Shown here: positions 1 through 8,811 of the stretch, one piece after another
Position numbering within the stretch: the stretch's first letter is position 1
Layout: each line of letters starts with the position of its first letter
Assembly (NCBI GenBank): GCA_020216845.1
Contig: JAIWNK010000164.1
Coordinates: 1-8,811, forward strand
Length of the DNA: 8,811 nucleotides
Direction of reading: 5' to 3'
Origin: Anaerolinea sp.
Lineage (GTDB): Bacteria > Chloroflexota > Anaerolineae > Anaerolineales > Anaerolineaceae
Notes under the pieces: generated by a model
Told to the model about the DNA's origin: nothing
The model's database searches: none
What the model saw: the letters and a program-made list of their open reading frames with translations, nothing else
Program-made: the position numbers and the translations under genes

Positions 1-10
1 CCTTTTCTTT

Positions 11-36
11 TGGGCGGCCTTACAGGTCGCCCTTAC
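11..36. repeat. REP-like imperfect hairpin downstream of the RAYT gene
   Basis: The stem GGGCGGCCT (12-20) pairs with AGGTCGCCC (24-32) over a 3-nt loop, with one G.T wobble. Read on the minus strand it begins GTAAGGGCGAC, which matches 10 of 11 bases of the arm GTAGGGGCGAC of the perfect palindrome at 331-358. REP/RAYT systems are known for short palindromes flanking the transposase gene, so this is probably a diverged member of the same palindrome family. There is no T-run after the stem on the minus strand, so it is not a classical intrinsic terminator. Confidence 0.5.
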
Positions 37-65
37 GCTTTAAGCGCTAAGCGCATCTTGAGGTT

Positions 66-90
66 GCCGATCCCCCATTGAGGGGGCGGC
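66..90. other. GC-rich imperfect stem-loop after the RAYT stop codon
   Basis: GCCG (66-69) and CCCCC (72-76) can pair with GGGGG (82-86) and CGGC (87-90), leaving a 2-nt bulge and a 5-nt loop. It lies 23 bases past the RAYT stop codon on the minus strand. No U-tract follows, so it could be a 3'-end protecting structure, a Rho-related site or part of the REP region. It shares no clear sequence with the palindrome family. Confidence 0.3.
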
Positions 91-112
91 GTTGCTTGGG
101 GCGGCAGGGCAA

Positions 113-811
113 TCAGTTTTCGCGGTCTTTTTTCCAGCGCGACGGGTTGTTTTGAATATATGCAGCAATGCGCCGCCATTCTTCTTCGTTGCGCACAATG
201 TGTTCATAATAATTGCGCTGCCAGACGGACGCGCCGGGTGTGCCGCGTTGTTGGTTAATCCGTTTGGTGACGGCCGATTTAAACGAACCCACGATGGATG
301 AAACGGATTGACGTTGTGGCCCGCGCGCCGGTAGGGGCGACGCATGCGTCGCCCCTACGTGCGTCGCCCCCATATTTGTCGTCCCCATATTCGTCATCCC
401 CACATTCGTCATCCCCACATTCGTCATCCCCACATTCGTCGTCCCCACATTTGTCATCCCCACATTCGTCGTCCCCACATTCGTCGCCCCCACATTCGTC
501 GTCCCCACATTCGTCGTCCCCACATTCGTCGCCCCGGATGGATTCACCAACACGATAATGCCATGAACATGATTCGGCATGACCACAAATTCATCCAATA
601 CCGCATTCGGAAAATGCGCCGGGATTTCAACCCAACATTGCCACACAATTTGCCCCCATTCATTCAATTGCATTTTCCCGTCTACAATCGAACCGAACAG
701 GCTAACGCGATCCTGCGTGACAATGGTGATGAAATACGCCCCCGATTGCGAGTAATCATACCCGGCAAGGCGAATGCTACGGCGGTGATGAACAGGCAAG
801 TTATCCGGCAT
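113..811 (-). CDS. REP-associated tyrosine transposase (RAYT, IS200-like HUH/Y1 family)
   Basis: A 232-residue single-strand DNA transposase-like protein of the RAYT group, thought to process REP palindromes. The N-terminal half has the typical stretch HHRRSIRLAGYDYSQSGAYF and the HUH motif MPNHVHGII (H81, H83), which binds the metal. The C-terminal half has FKSAVTKRIN, TPGASVWQRNYYEH (catalytic tyrosine probably Y201 or Y202) and the closing AAYIQNNPSRW, as in intact family members, so all catalytic parts are present. Between them, in the normally variable loop, residues 95-154 are a five-residue repeat of the type T-N-V-G-X, followed by THASPL encoded by a REP-like palindrome. The start at 811 is preferred to the longer option at 844 because AAGGAG lies 7 bases upstream. 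It stands alone, with a 77-bp gap to the upstream gene. Family assignment is secure; activity is unknown because of the inserted repeat. Confidence 0.93.
   Translation of the reverse strand: MPDNLPVHHRRSIRLAGYDYSQSGAYFITIVTQDRVSLFGSIVDGKMQLNEWGQIVWQCWVEIPAHFPNAVLDEFVVMPNHVHGIIVLVNPSGATNVGTTNVGTTNVGATNVGTTNVGMTNVGTTNVGMTNVGMTNVGMTNMGTTNMGATHVGATHASPLPARGPQRQSVSSIVGSFKSAVTKRINQQRGTPGASVWQRNYYEHIVRNEEEWRRIAAYIQNNPSRWKKDREN
331..358. repeat. Perfect 28-bp REP-like palindrome inside the RAYT coding region
   Basis: Each 14-base arm reads GTAGGGGCGACGCA on its own strand, and the two arms abut with no loop, so the sequence equals its own reverse complement. It encodes about residues 152-161 (VGATHASPLP) of the RAYT. 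Sequences of this kind, giving GATHASPL-like peptides when translated, are recalled as dispersed repeats in Chloroflexota, cyanobacteria and others (memory, not searched). It is probably a target or relic of REP spread by a RAYT, here inserted in frame in the transposase gene. Confidence 0.85.
348..535. repeat. 15-bp minisatellite, about 12 units, within the RAYT gene
   Basis: Twelve contiguous 15-base units begin at 348, 363, 378 and so on to 513, with a partial unit from 528. The plus-strand consensus is GTCGTCCCCACATTC. Units differ mainly at the fourth and fifth bases (GT, AT or GC) and the last base. The first unit (348-362, GTCGCCCCTACGTGC) overlaps the right arm of the 28-bp palindrome and matches the consensus at 11 of 15 positions. 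The next two units are intermediate (CATATT where the others have CACATT). The period is five codons, so changes in copy number keep the RAYT frame. The repeat also keeps several other frames open, creating spurious plus-strand ORFs. Confidence 0.95.
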
Positions 812-876
812 GTTGCAGCTCCTTGTAGCGAACCGGTCAAGCATCGGTCAGGCAGCCCGAAGTCGGCCGAAAGCGG

Positions 877-904
877 CTTTGCCCCGATTCACAATCGGGC
901 AAAG
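877..904. other. Stem-loop spanning the stop codon of the DUF4268 gene
   Basis: CTTTGCCCCGATT (877-889) pairs with AATCGGGCAAAG (893-904) around a CAC loop, giving a 12-bp stem with one bulged base. The TGA stop of the minus-strand gene (889-891) lies at the loop. It may act as a 3'-end structure separating this gene from the RAYT gene, but no U-tract follows on either strand, so a terminator role is only a guess. Confidence 0.4.
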
Positions 905-1821
905 TGCGTTTTGAGCGCAGCTTCCAGGCGCGCCATCGCATCAATCATGGCGTCTTGAAGCGCATCCCAGTTTTCCTGGTCAGGAAGTCCACCGTGCCCA
1001 TGAATCAGATAAGCAATGCGCGACGCACGCTTCTGGTCCAAACGCTGCCATTCCAATGGCGCGCCAAAACTGGCTTCGATCTCGTTTTTGTGCTTCAAGA
1101 GCGCGTCGAAATAACGTTTGTTTTTGTCAACTTCCAATGTATCAATATAAAGTTCCACCCGCGCATGATCCATGAGAACGACATAGGCCCAGGTAACCCC
1201 GCTCTTCCCGGCGCCAGCACTTACCCATTGACCTTTGCTGGGGGAGATATTGGCAAACACGGTAGACTTTTGCTTCGCCTTTGTCAACAAGCCTTGCCAA
1301 AACTCCTGACATAAAATGTGATGGTGTGCCAGTTCCTTGCGCTGTTCGCCGATTCGGCGGCTCTCCGCACTTGGGCCAGCAATGACCGTGAAAAGCGGCG
1401 CAGGCGGGGAGTCATCAATGCGCACCGCTTCGACCTGAAGCAGGTAAAAAGAGGTGTCGTCGGGCAGGGTTTCGTTGAGCCAGTGCACCGCTTTTTCGTG
1501 TTCGGGGCGCGGTTGGCTGGTAATCCAGATCGCTGTTTTGGCATCATGGTTGCTCATGTAAGTAATCAGTTTGCCCAAATGGTCGTGATCGGTGCGATCC
1601 AGTTGATTTTCGATGACGACCTGATTGCCATTTTCATCTTCCGCCAGGATGTCCACGGCAAAATCTCCGGCAGCAGCCTCGGTTTGCACCAGCAAGAGGT
1701 GCAAACCGGTGAGTTCGGAAAGCAGGTCAAGGTTTTCTGCCAGCCAGCGGGTAAAGTTCAGGGCTTCGTGATGCCAAACTACACGCAGGGGAACACGGGT
1801 GAGACGGGCTATGGGCTTCAT
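889..1821 (-). CDS. DUF4268 domain protein with PD-(D/E)XK-like nuclease N-terminus
   Basis: A soluble 310-residue protein. Residues about 25-130 look like a restriction-endonuclease-like fold: GDFAVDILAEDENGNQVVIENQ gives a candidate active-site pair D57 and E71-x-Q73 (Q in place of the usual K), followed by DRTDHDHLGKLITY and the strand AKTAIWIT. Residues about 165-305 match the DUF4268 type, with the segments FWQGLL, RVELYID, KRYFDALLKHKNEIEASFG and PLEWQRLD. The family is found across bacteria and archaea, often in variable regions, and has been linked by context to DNA modification or defence, but its reaction is not established. The start at 1821 has GGAG 11 bases upstream, which is a little far. 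No methyltransferase or other defence gene is in the window; the RAYT downstream is separated by a stem-loop. Family is fairly sure, function is not. Confidence 0.85.
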   Translation of the reverse strand: MKPIARLTRVPLRVVWHHEALNFTRWLAENLDLLSELTGLHLLLVQTEAAAGDFAVDILAEDENGNQVVIENQLDRTDHDHLGKLITYMSNHDAKTAIWITSQPRPEHEKAVHWLNETLPDDTSFYLLQVEAVRIDDSPPAPLFTVIAGPSAESRRIGEQRKELAHHHILCQEFWQGLLTKAKQKSTVFANISPSKGQWVSAGAGKSGVTWAYVVLMDHARVELYIDTLEVDKNKRYFDALLKHKNEIEASFGAPLEWQRLDQKRASRIAYLIHGHGGLPDQENWDALQDAMIDAMARLEAALKTHFARL

Positions 1822-2010
1822 GGCGGCGGTTTCTCCGGTTTAAAGGACTAAATGTTATTCCACGCACCAATCATGCAAACCCTGAGAAAGGTATGCACAA
1901 CGCTGTATTTTATTTGCCTGGTAGGAGCATTAAATGGGGTTGAAGTGGTCAAGAATTGAAGCATTGGTTCCGAGATTCATTTTTCGTAGCAAAAACCCTC
2001 AATGGATAGA

Positions 2011-2058
2011 CTGTAACATTTTGGCAAACTCTCCTGTCTGTGAAACCAAAATGTACAG
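2011..2058. repeat. Inverted repeat, 13-bp stem with 21-nt loop
   Basis: CTGTAACATTTTGG (2011-2024) pairs with CCAAAATGTACAG (2046-2058), with only A2015 unpaired. The loop is 2025-2045. It is AT-rich, lies far from either flanking start codon, and no U-tract follows on either strand. It could be an operator-like site, a remnant end of a mobile element or a small structured RNA; nothing in the sequence decides between these. Confidence 0.6.
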
Positions 2059-2251
2059 TTTGGGCTGATCTTCAACCAACTGCCCATGCGCTCAGCACAT
2101 CCGCACCCCAAGCCCTTGCCCAAGGCAAACACGCCTTGAGGCGATGATTTAAGCATACAAGAAAAGCCCCATTTTGTCAAAGCGCTGCGGCCCAAAGAGC
2201 CGTGCCCCCACCAATCCGCCTCGTCAGCGAGCCGGGGCTGTCGCCAACTTC

Positions 2252-2260
2252 TGATACAAT
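2252..2260 (+). promoter_or_regulatory. Probable extended -10 promoter of the permease gene
   Basis: TGATACAAT contains the extended -10 TG and the hexamer TACAAT (2255-2260). No good -35 is seen at the proper distance, as is common for extended -10 promoters. Transcription would start near 2267, about 27 bases before the ATG. The same nonamer occurs before the minus-strand operon at 4951-4959. Confidence 0.5.
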
Positions 2261-2293
2261 ACTTTCATCCATCCTTTTCTATGCGAGGCAAGC

Positions 2294-3835
2294 ATGAACC
2301 TTCTTTTGGCACTTGCGCCGGTTGTGGTCATCTTGTTGCTGCTGACCCTGCGCCGCATGGCAGCAGACCTGGCCGGGGCGATTGGCTGGGCGCTGACCCT
2401 GCTGATTGTCTGGCTCTATTTCCGCACCCCCTTGCTGATTGCGCTGCAAGTCAGCCTGGCCGGGGTTGTTGCTTCCCTGCCCATCGCCCTGATGGTTGTC
2501 ACCTCCATCTTTCAGATTACGCTGATGCAAGAGACAGGCGCCATCCGGCGCATTGTGGCACTGATCAAGACCATTTCGCCGCGCGATCAGATCGTTCAAA
2601 TCATGATCATCAACGTCGGCATCGGCACGCTGCTCGCCGCCATGGGCGCAACGCCGGTCTCCATCCTGCCGCCGATCATGCTTGCCCTGGGCTATTCCTC
2701 GCTGGTTGCCATTGCCCTGCCGGCCATCGGCTATGATGCGCTCTGCACCTACGCCCTGCTCGGTGTGCCGGTTGTGGTCTTTTCCAACTTTGTCGGTCAG
2801 CCGGTCAACGAAGTGGGGCACTACTTTGCCCGCTACATGCCCGTCATCAGCACCTGCATTGCCCTCGGCATGTTGTGGATTGTGGGGGGCTGGAAGCTGC
2901 TATGGAAAGGGTTGCTGCCGGCCCTGCTCACAGGTCTGACAGCCGGCGGCATTGCCATCGGCATGAATGCCCTTGGCCTGGTCACGCTGACCGGCATCGC
3001 CGCCGGTTTGGGGGTTGTGTTGGTCATGCTTGCCTACCTCAAACTTTCCGGCAAACCGCTGCGCGACCCGGCCATCCTGACAGACAGCGATCAGCAAGCC
3101 ATGCGCAGCATGTCGCTTGGACGGGCCCTCTCCCCCTGGATGATTTTGATCGCCTTCTCGTTATTGGTCAATGCGCCCTTTTTGCCCTTCTTCAAGCTAA
3201 CCTTCAGCACCTGGGCCATGCCGCTGGAGATCATCCCCGGCGCGCCCGAAAAGCTGCGCCTGTTCTGGCAGGCCTATTTTTGGATTCTGATCAGCAGCTT
3301 GTTGGCCCTGCCGTTCCTCCGCCCCGGACGCGCCATATGGCGCGTCACCCTGCAAAAATGGTCACGGCGCTGCCTGCGTCCCGCCCTGGCGGCGGCCATC
3401 TTCTTCGCCATTGCCTTTCTTTTCAACCATTCCGGCAAGGGCAGCGACTGGCTGCTGACAGACCCAAGCCGCAACATGGTGCAAGTCATTGCTGCGGCTT
3501 CGGCACAGGCGTTCGGGCGCGGCTACCCGTTGGTTGCGCCCTTCCTCGGCCTTCTGGCGGGCTTCATCAGCGGCTCCGAGGCTTCGGCCATTGCCATGTG
3601 GACGGGCATCAACCTTTCCACCGCCGAAAAGATCGGTGCGCTGGGGCTGCTCATCGCCGCCTCAGGCGGCATTGGCGGCGGCTTGGCCAGCGTCATCTCC
3701 CCGGCCAAGCTGCAAAACGCCGCCGCGACGATTGACCGCATCGGCGACGAAGGCCGCGTCATCCCGATGGCCTTCGTCATCTCGCTGGTCATCACTGCCG
3801 TATGCGCCGTGATGACCCTGCTCTGGGCCTTCTAA
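2294..3835 (+). CDS. L-lactate permease family (LctP/LldP-type) transporter
   Basis: A 513-residue polytopic inner-membrane protein, slightly shorter than the usual roughly 550 residues of LctP/LldP and GlcA. Hydrophobic segments run nearly throughout, including residues 4-19, 24-43, 47-78, 103-117, 125-146, 152-168, 183-199, 205-250, 281-299, 326-342, 362-377, 411-427, 446-469 and 491-511. Family signatures are LPIALMVVTSIFQITLMQETGAI (62-84), PFLGLLAGFISGSEAS (416-431) in place of the usual gaFltGSnTas, and VISPAKLQNAAATIDRIGDEG (467-487). GAGG lies 5 bases before the ATG. Known members import lactate or glycolate by cation symport; here the GS-E-AS change and weak overall likeness make the substrate uncertain. 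It is monocistronic, and its TAA interlocks with the TAG of the convergent gene, leaving no room for a terminator between them. Confidence 0.85.
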   Translation: MNLLLALAPVVVILLLLTLRRMAADLAGAIGWALTLLIVWLYFRTPLLIALQVSLAGVVASLPIALMVVTSIFQITLMQETGAIRRIVALIKTISPRDQIVQIMIINVGIGTLLAAMGATPVSILPPIMLALGYSSLVAIALPAIGYDALCTYALLGVPVVVFSNFVGQPVNEVGHYFARYMPVISTCIALGMLWIVGGWKLLWKGLLPALLTGLTAGGIAIGMNALGLVTLTGIAAGLGVVLVMLAYLKLSGKPLRDPAILTDSDQQAMRSMSLGRALSPWMILIAFSLLVNAPFLPFFKLTFSTWAMPLEIIPGAPEKLRLFWQAYFWILISSLLALPFLRPGRAIWRVTLQKWSRRCLRPALAAAIFFAIAFLFNHSGKGSDWLLTDPSRNMVQVIAAASAQAFGRGYPLVAPFLGLLAGFISGSEASAIAMWTGINLSTAEKIGALGLLIAASGGIGGGLASVISPAKLQNAAATIDRIGDEGRVIPMAFVISLVITAVCAVMTLLWAF

Positions 3836-4623
3836 CCCGCCGCAACCGGCAGCGCGGCCAGGCAAATCAGCAATGCGGCCACAAACAGCCCCCGCCCAAG
3901 CCAACGTTGCCATGGGCTGACAACAAACAGGTTCTCCTCGACCAGGAAGACAAGGCGCGAGGCCAAATAGAGCATGGAAAACATCACCCCGGCCCCCAAA
4001 TAGCCCAAGGCCCTTGCATTCGCTTCAATTGGCGGCACAGTCGCCGCCAGATAATCCCACGTGCTGGTGAAACCGGTTGCCGCACCCAGCAACAGAAGCA
4101 GCTCTGCCACCATTTCCAACAGCCCGCTGAACGGCCAACGCTGTAACATGCTTTGCAGCCCTGGCCACCTGGGAGGCCGATAGCTCGTCGGCTGATAAAT
4201 GAGCTTCAGGATCGTACCCTCCTTGAGGATCATCAAAAAGAACAGGGCCAAAAGCAACCCCCCGCCCTCGTTCTGCTGCACACGATAGCCAAAGACGATG
4301 CAAATCGTCATCAGCAGCAGAAAGACATACAAAAACCGGAACAGGCCCGTTGCCCCCAAGAGCAGCAGATTTGCGATCGGCAGCGCGGCCCCATGGCTGG
4401 GTCGCCGCGCAAGACAGGCAAATTTGATTTGCGCCCCCACCCATTCCACCCCCTGTGCCGCAATCAGCATCAGCCCCATCGGCACATCTGCGGCGCCATA
4501 GGCAGTGGCGAACAGCTCCTTGCGCAACAGCACCGGGTGAAGCCACTGCAAATAAGCCAGGAATAATACTGCCGACCACACGCTGCGCCAACGATAGGCC
4601 CAGCCAACGATCAGGGCACCCAT
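3832..4623 (-). CDS. Uncharacterised multi-pass membrane protein
   Basis: A 263-residue integral membrane protein I cannot assign to a known family. Hydrophobic segments lie at about residues 14-31, 48-66, 81-112 (probably two), 122-141, 167-190, 206-228 and 245-262, giving seven or eight helices; the linker 142-166 is polar and proline/arginine-rich. The start at 4623 is inferred: it overlaps the end of the upstream gene by 13 bases in another frame, suggesting translational coupling, while the in-frame ATG at 4704 would overlap it by 94 bases. AGGAG is present but only a base from the ATG, and another GGAG lies 12 bases away, so initiation probably relies on coupling. Its stop codon interlocks with that of the permease gene. 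Confidence 0.75.
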   Translation of the reverse strand: MGALIVGWAYRWRSVWSAVLFLAYLQWLHPVLLRKELFATAYGAADVPMGLMLIAAQGVEWVGAQIKFACLARRPSHGAALPIANLLLLGATGLFRFLYVFLLLMTICIVFGYRVQQNEGGGLLLALFFLMILKEGTILKLIYQPTSYRPPRWPGLQSMLQRWPFSGLLEMVAELLLLLGAATGFTSTWDYLAATVPPIEANARALGYLGAGVMFSMLYLASRLVFLVEENLFVVSPWQRWLGRGLFVAALLICLAALPVAAG

Positions 4624-4919
4624 TCTCCTATCTCGCTCCAGGCATAAGAAAGGTGCGACGCCAACGGGTCTTTCAGTTTGCGGCGCACGCGACGATGCAC
4701 CCACTCCAACAGCGCCAGGCCGCCCAGCTCATTCAAGCGTTTGCCAATCTCACGGGCGCGCACATGCCGGCATTGCGCATTGAAAGGCGAGCCCGGACGC
4801 TCAGACAGAAAATCATCCTTGTGTCCAATCTCGATCAGCTCCTGCAACAAGCGCTGCACCTCGCCGCGCGCCGCCGGCGCGCAAGGTGCAGCACCGAAGA
4901 AATCTTCCAAAATACCCAT
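4611..4919 (-). CDS. Small hypothetical protein, first gene of a two-gene operon
   Basis: A 102-residue soluble, charged, mostly helical protein. The stretch VQRLLQELIEIGHKDDFLSE (21-40), then FNAQCRHVRAREIGKRLNELGGLALLEWVHRRVRRKL (46-82) and ASHLSYAWSEIGEW (87-100), look like a conserved domain. I have an impression of similar proteins in Anaerolineae but cannot name a family. The start at 4919 is chosen over 4937 because GGAGG lies 5 bases upstream. Its stop overlaps the start of the following membrane protein gene by 13 bases, so the two are likely co-translated and functionally linked. The promoter at 4951-4959 gives a leader of about 25 bases. Confidence 0.8.
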   Translation of the reverse strand: MGILEDFFGAAPCAPAARGEVQRLLQELIEIGHKDDFLSERPGSPFNAQCRHVRAREIGKRLNELGGLALLEWVHRRVRRKLKDPLASHLSYAWSEIGEWVP

Positions 4920-4950
4920 CGCGACCTCCATCAACAATTACAGATAAAAA

Positions 4951-4959
4951 ATTGTATCA
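4951..4959 (-). promoter_or_regulatory. Extended -10 promoter of the minus-strand two-gene operon
   Basis: On the minus strand this reads TGATACAAT, an extended -10 with hexamer TACAAT, followed by a run of six T. Transcription would begin near 4944, about 25 bases before the ATG at 4919 and just upstream of GGAGG. It is identical to the nonamer before the permease gene. No matching -35 was found. Confidence 0.55.
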
Positions 4960-4975
4960 CACGCTTGCAAATTTA

Positions 4976-4984
4976 TGCTACAAA
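4976..4984 (+). promoter_or_regulatory. -10 element placing transcription start at the ATG of the PIG-L gene
   Basis: TGCTACAAA is an extended -10 (TG, one base, TACAAA) ending six bases before the ATG at 4991. Start of transcription would fall at or within a base or two of the ATG. There is no Shine-Dalgarno sequence in the gap, which supports a leaderless transcript. The element is 16 bases from the opposing -10 at 4951-4959, so the two promoters probably interfere with each other. Confidence 0.5.
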
Positions 4985-4990
4985 TAAGTC

Positions 4991-5758
4991 ATGCGCTGGA
5001 TTTATCTTTCCCCTCATTTGGATGATGTCGTCCTCTCGTGCGGCGCCATCGTCTGGCAACAAGTGCAAGCCGGGCACAAAGTGGAGATTTGGAGCATCTT
5101 CGCCGGAGATCCCCCCGAAGGCGACTTGCCGCCCTTTGCCCTGACCCTGCACGAACGTTGGCAAACCGGCCCGCAGGCTTATGCCGTGCGCCGTGCGGAA
5201 GACCGCGCCGCCTGTGCCGTGTTGGGTGCGCAGGCGCGTCACCTGCACTTTGCCGATTGCATCTACCGTCGCCTGCCCTCCGGCGAGCCGCTGATTGCCG
5301 AAAACGAGCAGCTGTTTGCCCCGCTGCACGCGCAAGAAGCGCCGTTGCTGCAAGAAATCAGCGATTTGCTTGCCGCCTATCTGCCGCGCAACGCCATGCT
5401 GATCAGCCCGCTTTCCATTGGCGGGCATGTAGACCATCGCCTGGTGCGCGCCGCCGCCGAGCGCCTCGGTCGTCGCCTGGGCTACTATGCCGATTATCCC
5501 TACGCCATCACCCGCCCCACACAAGTCGGTTCCCAAGCCGCCGGGCGAGCACGTCATTTTCCCCTGCCCCCGCCCGCCCTACAGGCCTGGATGGATGCCA
5601 TTGCCTGTCACGTCAGTCAGCTAAGCACCTTTTGGCCAAGTGAAGCAGCCATGCGGCAAGAACTGCAAGCCTACGCTGCCCAAGGCGGAGGACAAACGCT
5701 TTGGTTTCAACCCTGCCAAAGAACTATTTACAAAAATCATCATCAAAACTCCCCTTAA
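4991..5758 (+). CDS. PIG-L/LmbE family zinc-dependent deacetylase
   Basis: A 255-residue cytoplasmic hydrolase of the PIG-L (LmbE) family, whose members remove N-acetyl groups from GlcNAc-type sugars or related conjugates using zinc. The N-terminal SPHLDDVVLSCG (7-18) is the zinc and catalytic motif usually written PHPDDE: H9 and D12 are likely ligands and D11 the likely base. The second signature GGHVDHRLVRAAA (144-156) supplies the third ligand (H149, with H146 nearby). YADYPYA (166-172) is also typical of a subset of the family. The PHLDD form with V in place of E is seen in a common bacterial subgroup. No cofactor- or sugar-specific neighbour is present, so the substrate is unknown; glycan or antibiotic/thiol (bacillithiol, mycothiol) precursors are only possibilities. 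The gene seems leaderless and is divergent from the two-gene operon. Confidence 0.9.
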   Translation: MRWIYLSPHLDDVVLSCGAIVWQQVQAGHKVEIWSIFAGDPPEGDLPPFALTLHERWQTGPQAYAVRRAEDRAACAVLGAQARHLHFADCIYRRLPSGEPLIAENEQLFAPLHAQEAPLLQEISDLLAAYLPRNAMLISPLSIGGHVDHRLVRAAAERLGRRLGYYADYPYAITRPTQVGSQAAGRARHFPLPPPALQAWMDAIACHVSQLSTFWPSEAAMRQELQAYAAQGGGQTLWFQPCQRTIYKNHHQNSP

Positions 5759-5785
5759 AAAGCCCTTTTCTTTAACATTTTAAGG

Positions 5786-5791
5786 TATAAT
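5786..5791 (+). promoter_or_regulatory. Consensus -10 hexamer before the response regulator gene
   Basis: A perfect TATAAT lies in the 108-bp gap between the PIG-L gene and the regulator gene; no convincing -35 stands 16-18 bases upstream. Transcription would start near 5798, giving a leader of about 70 bases. At the expected start there are two GACAT copies six bases apart (5797-5801 and 5803-5807) and a small palindrome ACATCATGT (5804-5812), which could be a binding site, possibly for the regulator itself; this is a guess. Confidence 0.5.
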
Positions 5792-5866
5792 GAAATGACA
5801 TAGACATCATGTTAGCAGTCTCCAGGAATTCCCCGAAACGCACCATCTCAATGAACGAAGTGATCC

Positions 5867-6589
5867 ATGAAAACAAAAATTTTGCTCATTGAAGGAAAGC
5901 ACTCTGATCACCCTTCTTTTGTCAGCGGTCTGACCAAGAAGGGTTTTCAGGTGGAAAGCGTTCCCAACGGGAATGCGGCCCTCAAACGCATTCACGAAGC
6001 GCATCCGCACCTGCTGATTGTAGATGCGGCTTCGTTGCGCACAAGCGGCACGCGCATCTGTCAGGCGCTGCGGCGCGCTGCGCCGGGCATTCCGCTGCTT
6101 GTCATCCTTGAAGAAGCCGCTCTGGAAGATAAAAAGCTCCAGGCGGATGCTGTCTTGCACCTGCCGTTCACCCTGCAAAAATTGGTCAACCGCATTCAAC
6201 CATTCCTGCCCACCGCTCCGACCAACCTGTTGCAGGCCGGGCCGATCCAACTGGATATCCAAAACCATGTTGTGCGCTGCTACAACCGCCAAACACGCCT
6301 GACGCCGCGGCTGATGACCTTGTTGCGCATGTTGATGGAACACCCTGGCGAGGTGATCGAGCGCGAAAAACTCTTCCGCGAAGCCTGGCAAACCACCTAC
6401 GCCGGCGATATGCGCACCCTGGATGTACACATCAGCTGGTTGCGCCAGGCCATCGAAGAAGACCCGCGCAACCCGCGCCTGATCAAAACATTGCGCGGCC
6501 AGGGCTACCGCTTGGATGTTGAAAACTTTGATACGCCAACGCAGCCATTGGTGACGCAAGAAAGCACAGAAATCACCCAGGTTCTATAA
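5867..6589 (+). CDS. OmpR/PhoB-type response regulator with degenerate receiver
   Basis: A 240-residue transcription factor. Residues 1-115 form a receiver-like domain: D53 (LLIVDAAS) remains at the phosphoacceptor place, but the acidic pair is reduced to E9-G10, the conserved Thr/Ser after strand 4 is replaced (E82), and the Lys before the cis-Pro is L99 (LHLPF). Residues 124-217 are a complete winged-helix Trans_reg_C domain, with LTPRLMTLLRMLMEHPGEVI, LDVHISWLRQAIEEDP and the wing TLRGQGYRLD. A polar 22-residue tail follows. No histidine kinase gene adjoins it. The lost pocket residues suggest that activity does not depend on ordinary phosphorylation, perhaps depending on dimer formation or a ligand. 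The ribosome site is weak (GAAGTGA a few bases before the ATG). The targets are unknown. Confidence 0.9.
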   Translation: MKTKILLIEGKHSDHPSFVSGLTKKGFQVESVPNGNAALKRIHEAHPHLLIVDAASLRTSGTRICQALRRAAPGIPLLVILEEAALEDKKLQADAVLHLPFTLQKLVNRIQPFLPTAPTNLLQAGPIQLDIQNHVVRCYNRQTRLTPRLMTLLRMLMEHPGEVIEREKLFREAWQTTYAGDMRTLDVHISWLRQAIEEDPRNPRLIKTLRGQGYRLDVENFDTPTQPLVTQESTEITQVL

Positions 6590-6621
6590 AAAAAGCAGGG
6601 CTGCCTCATTCGGCAGCCCTG
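6588..6621 (-). terminator. Intrinsic terminator of the decarboxylase operon
   Basis: CAGGGCTGCC (6596-6605) and GGCAGCCCTG (6612-6621) form a perfect 10-bp GC-rich stem with a 6-nt loop. On the minus strand the stem is followed one base later by seven T (6594-6588), so it is a strong Rho-independent terminator for the mmd operon. The T-run overlaps the stop codon of the convergent regulator gene. On the plus strand it is followed only by TTGCTT, so it may stop regulator transcripts less efficiently. A smaller hairpin, GGCCA-GGAA-TGGCC (6642-6655), lies between it and the mmdB stop. Confidence 0.92.
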
Positions 6622-6658
6622 TTGCTTACCCAAACTTGCCTGGCCAGGAATGGCCGGT

Positions 6659-7828
6659 TTAGCCGAAGCCCAACCCCTTGACCAGCGCCAGCAGCAAGCC
6701 GCCGGCAATCACCGAGCCAAGCTGCCCAGCCGTGTTCGAGCCCATGGCGTGCATCAGAATAAAGTTGCTGAAATCTTCATCCTGTGCCATCTTGGCAGAG
6801 ATGCGCCCGGCCATCGGGAAGGCGCTGATGCCGCACGCACCAATCAGCGGGTTGATCTTGTAGCCCGAAATGAAGCACATCAGCTTGCCAAACAGCAGCC
6901 CGGCAACCGTATCAATCACAAACGCCAGCAGGCCCAGCCCCAAAATCTTCAGCGTATCCCACTGTAAGCCTATCGCCGGGTCGAACAAGAATTTGCTCGC
7001 CGTCATGGTTGCGCCAACCGAAAGCCCCAAGAAGAGGGTGGAAATGTTGATGATTTCGTTCTGAACGGCCTTGTTCAACCGATCCACCACACCGCTTTCC
7101 TTGATCAGGTTGCCCAGCATCAACGAGGCAATCAGCGGGGCAGCATCGGGTGCCACCAGGCTAACGACAATGGTAACAATCACCGGGAAGAGCACCACCG
7201 CCAAATGCGGCACCGGAATGGGCGAATAATCCATGCGCACCAGGCGCTCGCGGCGCGTCGTCAGCAGCTTCATGATCGGCGGTTGGATAATGGGCACCAG
7301 GCTCATGTAGGAATAGGCCGCCACAGCCACCGGTCCCAACATATCGGGGGCAAGTTTGGTGGTGACGAAGATTGCCGTCGGGCCGTCAATGGCGCCAATC
7401 ACACCAATCGAGGCAGCCTGATTCATATTGAAGCCCAGCCACAGCGCCAGCAGCAGCGTGCCATAAATGCCAAACTGACCCGCAGCGCCCAACAACACCA
7501 TCTTCGGCTGCGAAAGCAACGGGCGGAAGTCAATCATTGCGCCCACGCCAACAAAGATGAGCAGCGGGAAGAGCTCAGTCTTGATGCCAGCACGGTAAAT
7601 GATATTCATCCAGTTGTCTTGCAACTCCGCCGGAATGCCATCCCCAGCCGGCATGCCGATATTGGCAAAAATACAACCAATGCCAATCGGCAGCAACAAG
7701 ACCGGTTCAATTTCTTTCTTGACCGCCAGCCAAATCAGCACACAGCCCACCAGCAGCATCACCCCGTTGGCCCAGGTGAAGGCCGATAAGCCTTTGGTGA
7801 GAAACATCAACACATTGGAGAAGTCCAT
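6659..7828 (-). CDS. mmdB: Sodium-pumping decarboxylase beta subunit (carboxybiotin decarboxylase)
   Basis: A 389-residue inner-membrane subunit of the OadB/MmdB/GcdB family. It removes CO2 from carboxybiotin on the carrier protein, consuming a periplasmic proton, and couples this to export of Na+. Hallmarks are GAIDGPTAIF (145-154; D148 is the counterpart of the essential Asp in Klebsiella OadB), SYMSLVPIIQPPIM (173-186; Y174), GLSVGATM (268-275) and HAMGSNTAGQLGSVIAGG (360-377; N365 near the second Na+ site). FVGVGAMIDF (92-101) and LMLGNLIKESGVVDRL (236-251) are also typical. Length is normal and all key residues are present. AAGGAG stands 5 bases before the ATG. It is the last gene of the operon, 15 bases after the biotin carrier gene, and followed by a strong terminator. 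The Na+ rather than H+ specificity is from family knowledge. Confidence 0.96.
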   Translation of the reverse strand: MDFSNVLMFLTKGLSAFTWANGVMLLVGCVLIWLAVKKEIEPVLLLPIGIGCIFANIGMPAGDGIPAELQDNWMNIIYRAGIKTELFPLLIFVGVGAMIDFRPLLSQPKMVLLGAAGQFGIYGTLLLALWLGFNMNQAASIGVIGAIDGPTAIFVTTKLAPDMLGPVAVAAYSYMSLVPIIQPPIMKLLTTRRERLVRMDYSPIPVPHLAVVLFPVIVTIVVSLVAPDAAPLIASLMLGNLIKESGVVDRLNKAVQNEIINISTLFLGLSVGATMTASKFLFDPAIGLQWDTLKILGLGLLAFVIDTVAGLLFGKLMCFISGYKINPLIGACGISAFPMAGRISAKMAQDEDFSNFILMHAMGSNTAGQLGSVIAGGLLLALVKGLGFG

Positions 7829-7843
7829 TGCATCTCCTTGGGG

Positions 7844-8275
7844 TTAATCTTTGAACTCGACCAACGGCTGTCCATGCCGGACAGTATCACCGGCGCTGAT
7901 CAACACAGAAGCAATGACGCCCTCACGCGAAGCGCGAATGATGTTCTTCATCTTCATTGCTTCCAGAATACACAGCTCCTGACCGTGCTTGACGGCATCA
8001 CCGGGCTTGACCGCCACGCTGATAATCACGCCGGGGATGGGCGCGGTGACGGCCTTGCTGACATCTGCGACCACTGCGGGGGTCTCGGCACTCGTGGCCG
8101 CCACCGGGGGCGTCACAGACGCACAGCCAGGAAGCGACGCAGCAACGGGCGCTTCATCCGCCTCGGGCCAAACAGCAAACGTCTCGCCTTCGATCGTCGC
8201 AAGCACCGGGCGAGCAGACAGGTCGGCTACCTCAACTTCAAAAATTTGGTCTTCAATCTTGACGCGTATTTTCAT
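7844..8275 (-). CDS. mmdC: Biotin carboxyl carrier protein of the decarboxylase
   Basis: A 143-residue biotinyl-domain protein that carries the carboxyl group from the carboxyltransferase to the membrane beta subunit. The C-terminal biotinyl domain (about 76-142) has the motif EAMKM, with K108 as the biotinylated lysine, preceded by PIPGVIISVAVKPGDAV and followed by a matching half-domain. The N-terminal part (1-40) is a small beta-rich region usual in this family, joined by an Ala/Pro/Thr-rich flexible linker (41-75). The ATG overlaps the upstream TGA by one base (TGATG), so translation is coupled. A free carrier, not fused to the carboxyltransferase, fits methylmalonyl-CoA and glutaconyl-CoA decarboxylases rather than oxaloacetate decarboxylase. 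Confidence 0.94.
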   Translation of the reverse strand: MKIRVKIEDQIFEVEVADLSARPVLATIEGETFAVWPEADEAPVAASLPGCASVTPPVAATSAETPAVVADVSKAVTAPIPGVIISVAVKPGDAVKHGQELCILEAMKMKNIIRASREGVIASVLISAGDTVRHGQPLVEFKD

Positions 8276-8643
8276 CAGGCACCTCGATTCTTACGAGTGA
8301 ACAGGCTGGCACGATCGCCCAAGACAGCTGCACGCCCGGCAGCCTGCCAGGGACTGACAGACACCGCGGATTGCTGCGGGCGCACCTGCGCCCGTTGCCG
8401 GGCCAGGGCAACCGCAACCGCCGCGGCTGCGGCGCGGGCCTTACGGCCATCCGGCGCAGCAATTGTTTCGGCAACAGGCTCACCGGCCTCTTCTTCATCT
8501 TCTTTTTCTTTTGCACGGATCGTCTCAAGCCATGCTGCACCGCGCACCATCAGGTACATCAGCCCCCACAGCAAGATGATCATGACAAAGACCAGGCCCA
8601 TGCCAATGCCGGTGATGATCAAACCAGCAACGAAATTGCTCAT
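8275..8643 (-). CDS. mmdD: OadG-like small membrane subunit of the decarboxylase
   Basis: A 122-residue protein with one N-terminal membrane helix (about 5-32, IITGIGMGLVFVMIILLWGL) of the OadG/MmdD type, then a charged segment (43-55, KAKEKEDEEE-like acidic/lysine-rich) and an Ala/Arg-rich tail. Such subunits hold the soluble carboxyltransferase on the membrane beta subunit and stabilise the complex. AGGAG lies 7 bases before the ATG at 8643, which is 12 bases past the stop of the carboxyltransferase gene. The order alpha, OadG-like, carrier, beta agrees with mmd operons such as that of Veillonella, except that no mmdE-type small gene lies between. The alanine-rich tail is probably flexible and lineage-specific. 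Confidence 0.85.
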   Translation of the reverse strand: MSNFVAGLIITGIGMGLVFVMIILLWGLMYLMVRGAAWLETIRAKEKEDEEEAGEPVAETIAAPDGRKARAAAAAVAVALARQRAQVRPQQSAVSVSPWQAAGRAAVLGDRASLFTRKNRGA

Positions 8644-8655
8644 GACAGGCTCCTG

Positions 8656-8811
8656 TTAGACCGGCATATTGCCGTGCTTGCGCGGCAGGGGCTGAGCGAC
8701 CTTGTTGCGCAGGGCCGCCAAGGCAGCGATGACACGTGCCCGCGTCTCGCGCGGCTCAATCACATCATCAATGTAGCCGCTGCTTGCCGCCGCATAGGGG
8801 TTGAGGAAGCG
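8656..8811 (-). CDS. mmdA: Acyl-CoA carboxyltransferase (methylmalonyl-CoA decarboxylase alpha), C-terminus only
   Basis: The last 51 residues and stop codon of a gene whose 5' part lies beyond the right edge of the window. The tail NPYAAASSGYIDDVIEPRET followed by RARVIAALAALRNK and ending PRKHGNMPV is the signature C-terminus of the MmdA/PccB carboxyltransferase family (usual form ...KHGNIPL). In the decarboxylase it moves the carboxyl group from the CoA ester, probably (S)-methylmalonyl-CoA, to biotin. Its distance of 12 bases to the OadG-like gene supports one transcript. The methylmalonyl specificity is inferred from the tail and operon order; the substrate pocket is not visible here. 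Confidence 0.9.
   Translation of the reverse strand, partial: RFLNPYAAASSGYIDDVIEPRETRARVIAALAALRNKVAQPLPRKHGNMPV

Follow-up and report, generated by a model that had tools for sequence, protein, structure and literature searches.

An 8,811-nucleotide stretch of Anaerolinea sp. DNA (assembly GCA_020216845.1, contig JAIWNK010000164.1, positions 1 to 8,811 of the forward strand), hereafter the window, carries on its minus strand a gene similar to those for the transposases associated with repetitive extragenic palindromes (REPs), known as RAYT or TnpA-REP, and within this gene a palindrome adjoins a tandem array of 15-bp units. The array probably arose by tandem multiplication of one arm of the palindrome, which is REP-like, has GTAG feet, lies in frame and is situated in a linker predicted to be disordered. 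The observations at hand are the palindrome itself, units that resemble its arm, a repeat period that stays in frame, differences in unit number among relatives, and a tendency of the array edge to lie at the dyad centre.

The palindrome occupies positions 331-358 (without strand) and is a perfect 28-bp inverted repeat, GTAGGGGCGACGCATGCGTCGCCCCTAC, whose ends are GTAG and CTAC (the 'double foot' REP form), translated in frame as V-G-A-T-H-A-S-P-L (VGATHASPL). Next to it, at 359-538 on the minus strand, stands a tandem run of 12 units of 15 bp, most of them GTGGGGRYGACRAAT when read on the coding strand and all variants of the palindrome's 5' arm; in coding-strand order the linker thus runs through the 12 units of 15 bp and then the palindrome. 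Tandem Repeats Finder places the repeat at 343-535, with 12.9 copies and 89% matches, and takes the palindrome arm as the first copy. An earlier note on this DNA, made from the sequence alone, had described both the perfect palindrome and the array beside it, and its count of 11 matches in 15 between a first unit at 348-362 and the repeat consensus is exact. In the register of the array, the arm at 344-358 equals the array-only consensus at 12 of 15 bases and the following 15 bases (329-343) match it at only four; among 17,146 15-mers elsewhere in the window, on both strands, one reaches 12 matches and three reach 11. Judged from sequence, the array is likely best explained as tandem copies of one palindrome arm, as the earlier note had supposed, an origin backed both by this in-register match and by recurrence in related genes.

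Counted outward from the palindrome, the units agree with the arm at 12, 10, 11, 11, 11, 12, 10, 12, 13, 12, 12 and 11 of 15 bases, with no trend with distance. Unit 1 alone is intermediate (it ends GCAC, not GAAT) and unit 9 is the most arm-like, so the gradient of intermediate units described in the earlier note is absent, and the direction of growth drawn from it is lost as well. Units 3-5 are identical to each other, as are units 10-11, which fits the proposed homogenisation. The GCG codon of the arm is retained in both end units, and ACG or ATG takes its place in nine of the ten interior units; retention at both ends is expected if the edges escape homogenisation, and the pattern does not tell the growing end.

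Each 15-bp unit encodes V-G-A/T/M-T-N, and the array matches the Pfam Pentapeptide_2 profile above its cut-off (E=2.7e-12), which raises the alternative that a selected repeat domain was fused into the transposase. We regard this as extremely improbable, given that homologues have periods anywhere from 9 to 54 bp, that the stretch is predicted to be disordered (pLDDT, the predicted local distance difference test score, below 50, in a model from 16 sequences), and that the middle residue switches among Ala, Thr and Met within the array.

The gene is listed at 113-844 on the minus strand with 243 codons for amino acids, and its homologues P0001 and P0002 begin at an ATG corresponding to window position 811. 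Tyr229 of the YI..NP motif (158-160, minus strand) is predicted, and taken by us, to be the catalytic tyrosine. A HUH motif, H92-V93-H94 within MPNHVHG, is at 563-571 on the same strand, and both MPNH.H and YI..NP, Tyr229 included, are invariant across the 16 aligned sequences. The gene scores 30.3 bits against Pfam Y1_Tnp, above the cut-off of 23, and so combines HUH and tyrosine motifs with a Y1 transposase core, as RAYT / TnpA-REP proteins do. NCBIfam NF047646 (REP_Tyr_transpos) matches in two stretches with E=1.2e-18 and 67.3 bits, below its curated cut-off of 80, likely because the insert splits the match. The closest fold for the predicted model (16 sequences in the alignment, mean pLDDT 65) is 4er8, a TnpA-REP with a REP hairpin, which is also the sole PDB sequence match at E 0.001. 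The gene, a RAYT in the earlier note, is RAYT-like by fold, motifs and GTAG palindrome, and we use this label on those grounds because the NF047646 equivalog cut-off was missed. The linker comprises residues 104-174 (323-535, minus strand), between a strand at 92-99 and a helix at 181-200, and is the part predicted to be disordered with pLDDT below 50. Palindrome and array are thus situated between the HUH motif and the helix preceding the tyrosine motif; the name HUH is used here in the same sense as in the text of PMC6006769.

Unit number differs among close relatives, a kind of variation that the earlier note had proposed to look for. The window has 12 units and its two best protein matches, P0001 and P0002, have 10 and 8, with four and one differences from the window in the flanking 172 residues of the 10-unit and 8-unit relatives respectively. 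VGATHASPL is present in 71 of the 120 protein matches listed, and seven of these 71 have three or more arm-like words by a rough word count that misses some (e.g. P0079). At the DNA level, two near-identical RAYT copies ~2 kb apart on contig 3 of one genome (L197 and L221) have 14.7 and 2.7 units of GGGGCGAAAAACGTA beside GTAGGGGCGAAAAATTTTTCGCCCCTAC, with linkers that are the same apart from unit number and cores identical at 213/222 and 161/165 bases. A second pair, L196 and L207, carries a palindrome identical to that of the window and, close to it but without reaching its arm, 10.9 and 4.9 units of 12 bp (cores identical at 219/222 and 163/165 bases), and a third, L007 and L053, has 6.3 and 2.5 units (200/222 and 141/162 bases). 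A further locus, L036 (810-1118), is a paralogue of L008 with fewer right-arm units and with the gene halves in different frames.

Linkers of related genes were surveyed in two samples, both chosen by similarity to the window gene, which may favour such linkers. The first drew on 151 genomes, 94 with matches, and included 29 loci from that search, 80 further stretches and the best 80 of 475 loci from a species collection; its 196 records (195 loci and the window) reduced to 156 distinct genes, and 155 linkers of at least 45 nt were scored. The second drew on genomes of the phylum not used in the first, at least 162 of 400 having matches, and its 105 loci gave 79 genes and 75 scored linkers. 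Scoring was +1 per match and -2 per mismatch, with a palindrome spacer of up to 8 nt, and thresholds of at least 10 for a palindrome and at least 14 for a tandem array. Stretches upstream and downstream of the linker in the same genes (shorter than the linker in 12/155 and 25/155 cases respectively) and codon shuffles served as controls. Only genes open across the linker were scored, and nine non-open genes were seen. The linkers of L047 and L055 contain runs of N in two assemblies, possibly a repeat that could not be assembled.

Palindromes are present in 86 of the 155 first-sample linkers (controls: none upstream, two downstream, 0.2% of codon shuffles) and arrays in 34 (one upstream, none downstream, 0.3% of shuffles). 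The second sample has palindromes in 38 of 75 linkers (controls one and none) and arrays in 18 (none and one). Palindromes alone, which the earlier note had suggested seeking, are common, with 58 of 155 linkers having a palindrome and no array. When the samples are pooled, a palindrome accompanies 40 of 52 arrays and is found in 84 of 178 linkers lacking an array (Fisher p 1.4e-4). The feet of the 86 first-sample palindromes are GTAG and CTAC at both ends in 63 and neither in 14. Among 66 first-sample cases 49 have the GTAG in frame 0 and 17 in frame 1, the second-sample figures being 24 and 7 of 31, and it is never in the frame reading TAG, as an open frame requires; since two frames are in use, the linkers do not share one inherited peptide. 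Array units resemble the palindrome they adjoin: in 19 of 24 arrays the adjacent unit is among the top 5% for its own palindrome, and in 10 it is strictly first; for the window unit, the score of its own palindrome is reached by one of 75 others. In the L222 linker a very long array of MDTDVMGTDV type (~480 bp, with a period of 45 bp) stops 3 nt short of a GTAG palindrome, and its unit does not look arm-like.

Related genomes also bear on the REP-like character of these palindromes. Copies of the linker palindrome (up to 4 mismatches) occur in the flanks of its own gene in 27 of the 76 cases tested (those of the 86 that are no longer than 45 nt), compared with 0.5% for unrelated palindromes, and the GTAGGGGC...GCCCCTAC form is found at 352 places in 73 of 151 genomes, with up to 24 in one, against 62 places in 42 of 151 genomes, with up to 5 in one, for a reversed control pattern. 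In the source genome (a 1.83 Mb assembly, 75.7% complete), a search of the kind proposed in the earlier note found neither a second copy of the window palindrome (up to 3 mismatches) nor the array elsewhere. Searches against Rfam and PHROGs gave, respectively, no match at the gathering score and two families of unknown function. A REP element is expected in many genomic copies; because the window palindrome has one in 1.83 Mb, its 'REP' label rests on form and on relatives. The second RAYT of this genome (contig 19, L006, match at 699-1184) has a linker without a strong palindrome, and upstream of it, at 158-560, a REP-like repeat of 72 bp is clustered in 5.6 copies.

The position of the arrays relative to the palindromes was assessed wherever one simple palindrome and an array touch, by comparing the inner array edge with the dyad centre. 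Nine of 34 first-sample and 10 of 18 second-sample arrays were set aside, on account of a composite palindrome (4 and 2, respectively), no overlap (4 and 4), a whole palindrome inside the array (0 and 3) or a palindrome score below 8 (1 and 1). Of 25 first-sample arrays, 17 have this edge no more than 3 nt from the centre (p 2e-5 against an even spread and 2e-4 against simulated random breakpoints), as do 22 of 33 pooled (p 3e-5), or 20 of 30 with homologous pairs merged (p 8e-5). The 22 centre-edged arrays have periods from 15 to 51 bp. Either arm can be multiplied: the 5' arm in 9 and the 3' arm in 16 first-sample cases, and in 7 and 1 second-sample cases.

Inner breakpoints near the hairpin tip, multiplication of either arm and outer ends beyond the GTAG foot together suggest that the hairpin provoked the duplication. 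The fold predicted for the window palindrome as single-stranded DNA is a stem of 12 bp capped by a 4-nt loop, and with the neighbouring unit added the best prediction pairs the arm of that unit with the far palindrome arm instead. We infer that the palindrome preceded the array, that the hairpin was the trigger, and that the outcome is neutral. A double-foot REP would first have inserted in frame between the HUH and tyrosine motifs, and its hairpin would then have triggered, during replication or repair, a duplication running from the tip (the dyad centre) through the arm to just beyond the GTAG foot. Once at least two tandem copies existed, ordinary slippage or unequal exchange could alter their number and homogenise the interior, with only changes in multiples of three keeping the gene open and the disordered linker tolerating them. 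The agent of the duplication may be polymerase slippage, a hairpin nuclease or the RAYT, and the array is most likely a by-product with no function of its own. A bolder and tentative idea, which we think possible though doubtful, is that a RAYT gene has a repeat generator built into it in the form of its own substrate hairpin. The tip would be the preferred breakpoint and either arm could be amplified in frame, so that the very DNA recognised by the enzyme would keep the linker between its two catalytic halves hypervariable.

An array that came first, followed by a palindrome that an inverted template switch created at the last unit, would likewise put the array edge at the dyad centre. The many palindromes without an array (58/155), their recurrence in gene flanks and the wide spread of the GTAGGGGC...GCCCCTAC form over its reversed control (352 places vs 62) make that order of events very improbable. 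It is also conceivable that the RAYT itself makes the array, by nicking, close to the GTAG foot, the hairpin that its own gene contains, with a strand-transfer or primed-repair product duplicating the arm. The recurrence of the palindrome in gene flanks (27/76) makes it plausibly the enzyme's own substrate, and TnpA-REP enzymes are described in the text of PMC8266576 as cutting and rejoining single-stranded REP hairpins beside the stem in vitro. There the enzymes are reported to cut at a C|T or C|A dinucleotide on the 5' or 3' side of the stem, and this position outside the stem speaks against the RAYT as direct cause, as the common breakpoint here is the dyad centre; we consider such an origin quite improbable.

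The multiplication of a palindrome arm, which remains our preferred explanation, has several observations weighing against it. The tendency of edges to lie at the dyad centre was first noticed by inspecting the first sample, so the second is the fair test, and there it is weak: 5 of 8 arrays, giving p 0.015 if edges are assumed to be spread evenly and p 0.07 under the stricter simulation; merging homologous pairs leaves 4 of 6 (p 0.08). At 28 bp, the palindrome is also on the short side for the hairpin nuclease SbcCD. All 34 first-sample arrays and 17 of 18 in the second sample have a period divisible by three, a regularity partly imposed by scoring only genes open across the linker. The window palindrome stands as a single copy in its own genome, so that its mobility there is hypothetical, the window array has no gradient to give its direction of growth, and P0001 and P0002 were compared as proteins only. 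Array origins look recurrent on a tree of the core sequences, where the array label needs 24 changes on the best tree and starred branches alone force at least 6 changes for arrays with a palindrome; the resolution is low, with 18 of 152 inner branches starred, and an independent-pairs test found 6 pairs on starred branches, too few to carry weight. Four of 34 first-sample and 4 of 18 second-sample arrays do not overlap a palindrome, the units of L184, L192 and L193 are unlike the arm, and 12 of 52 arrays lack a strong palindrome (score below 10). An array without a palindrome was the case that the earlier note held to be fatal to its proposal; such arrays exist by this threshold, and 10 of the 12 keep a weak palindrome with a score of 8 or 9.

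These exceptions, together with the predicted disorder of the linker and an array-palindrome link that is not significant in the second sample alone (a palindrome in 12/18 linkers with an array vs 26/57 without, p 0.18), would suit a linker that is simply a tolerant spot, with array and palindrome as independent guests. The linker does take repeats of other origin, L184, L192 and L193 among others, and the link between array and palindrome is a strong tendency, not a rule. As a general account, independent guests are nonetheless unlikely: units resemble their own palindrome (19/24), edges cluster at the dyad centre (22/33), and the window arm continues the array in register.

If arm multiplication is correct, it gives coding minisatellites a clear origin, with the hairpin tip marking the start of the repeat and with many natural replicates across bacteria. 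One could then read the likely REP of a RAYT off the linker it carries, and natural alleles would make it possible to test how linker length affects TnpA-REP activity. Elsewhere in the window, a short imperfect inverted repeat, TTTGCCCCGATTCACAATCGGGCAAA, lies at 878-903 across the 3' end of a DUF4268 gene (889-1821, minus strand) beside the RAYT gene, and minus-strand genes at 6659-8643 resemble those for the beta subunit, biotin carrier and gamma subunit of a sodium-pumping decarboxylase.

Several elements of this organisation have precedents. The text of Quentin et al. 2018 (PMC6006769) describes TnpA-REP genes of subclass 2.4 in which REPs lie in frame inside the gene, between HuH and Y, and the palindrome at 331-358 has this in-frame double-foot position, being a REP by form only. 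In-frame internal REPs, the 'double foot' GT[AG]G...C[TC]AC form, and an insertion domain between beta3 and alphaC, very variable in length and sequence and containing short repeats found by MEME, are thus already known; in the same text, taken without figures S6 and S10 of its supplement, those repeats are not stated to be a REP arm, to start at a dyad centre or to vary in unit number between alleles. The parts of PMC12306157 searched contain nothing on internal REPs under the terms looked for, and in the literature outside subscription papers and the PMC6006769 supplement we found no account of arm-derived arrays in RAYT genes or of array edges at the dyad centre. Intragenic GTAG REPs (Di Nocera et al. 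2013, PMC3733652) similarly include GTAG palindromes in coding regions and tandemly reiterated REP clusters, although the text describes REP singletons, dimers and groups rather than single-arm arrays in a RAYT gene. BrickBuilt of Porphyromonas gingivalis (PMC4596501) is likewise a minisatellite tied to a small mobile element, a miniature inverted-repeat transposable element (MITE), but it is intergenic with a 23-nt unit, and its text says nothing of a minisatellite derived from one arm of a palindrome within a transposase gene. Our additions are that the repeats are read as one arm of an internal REP, with an edge that tends to lie at the dyad centre, that such arrays recur with either arm, and that alleles differ in unit number.
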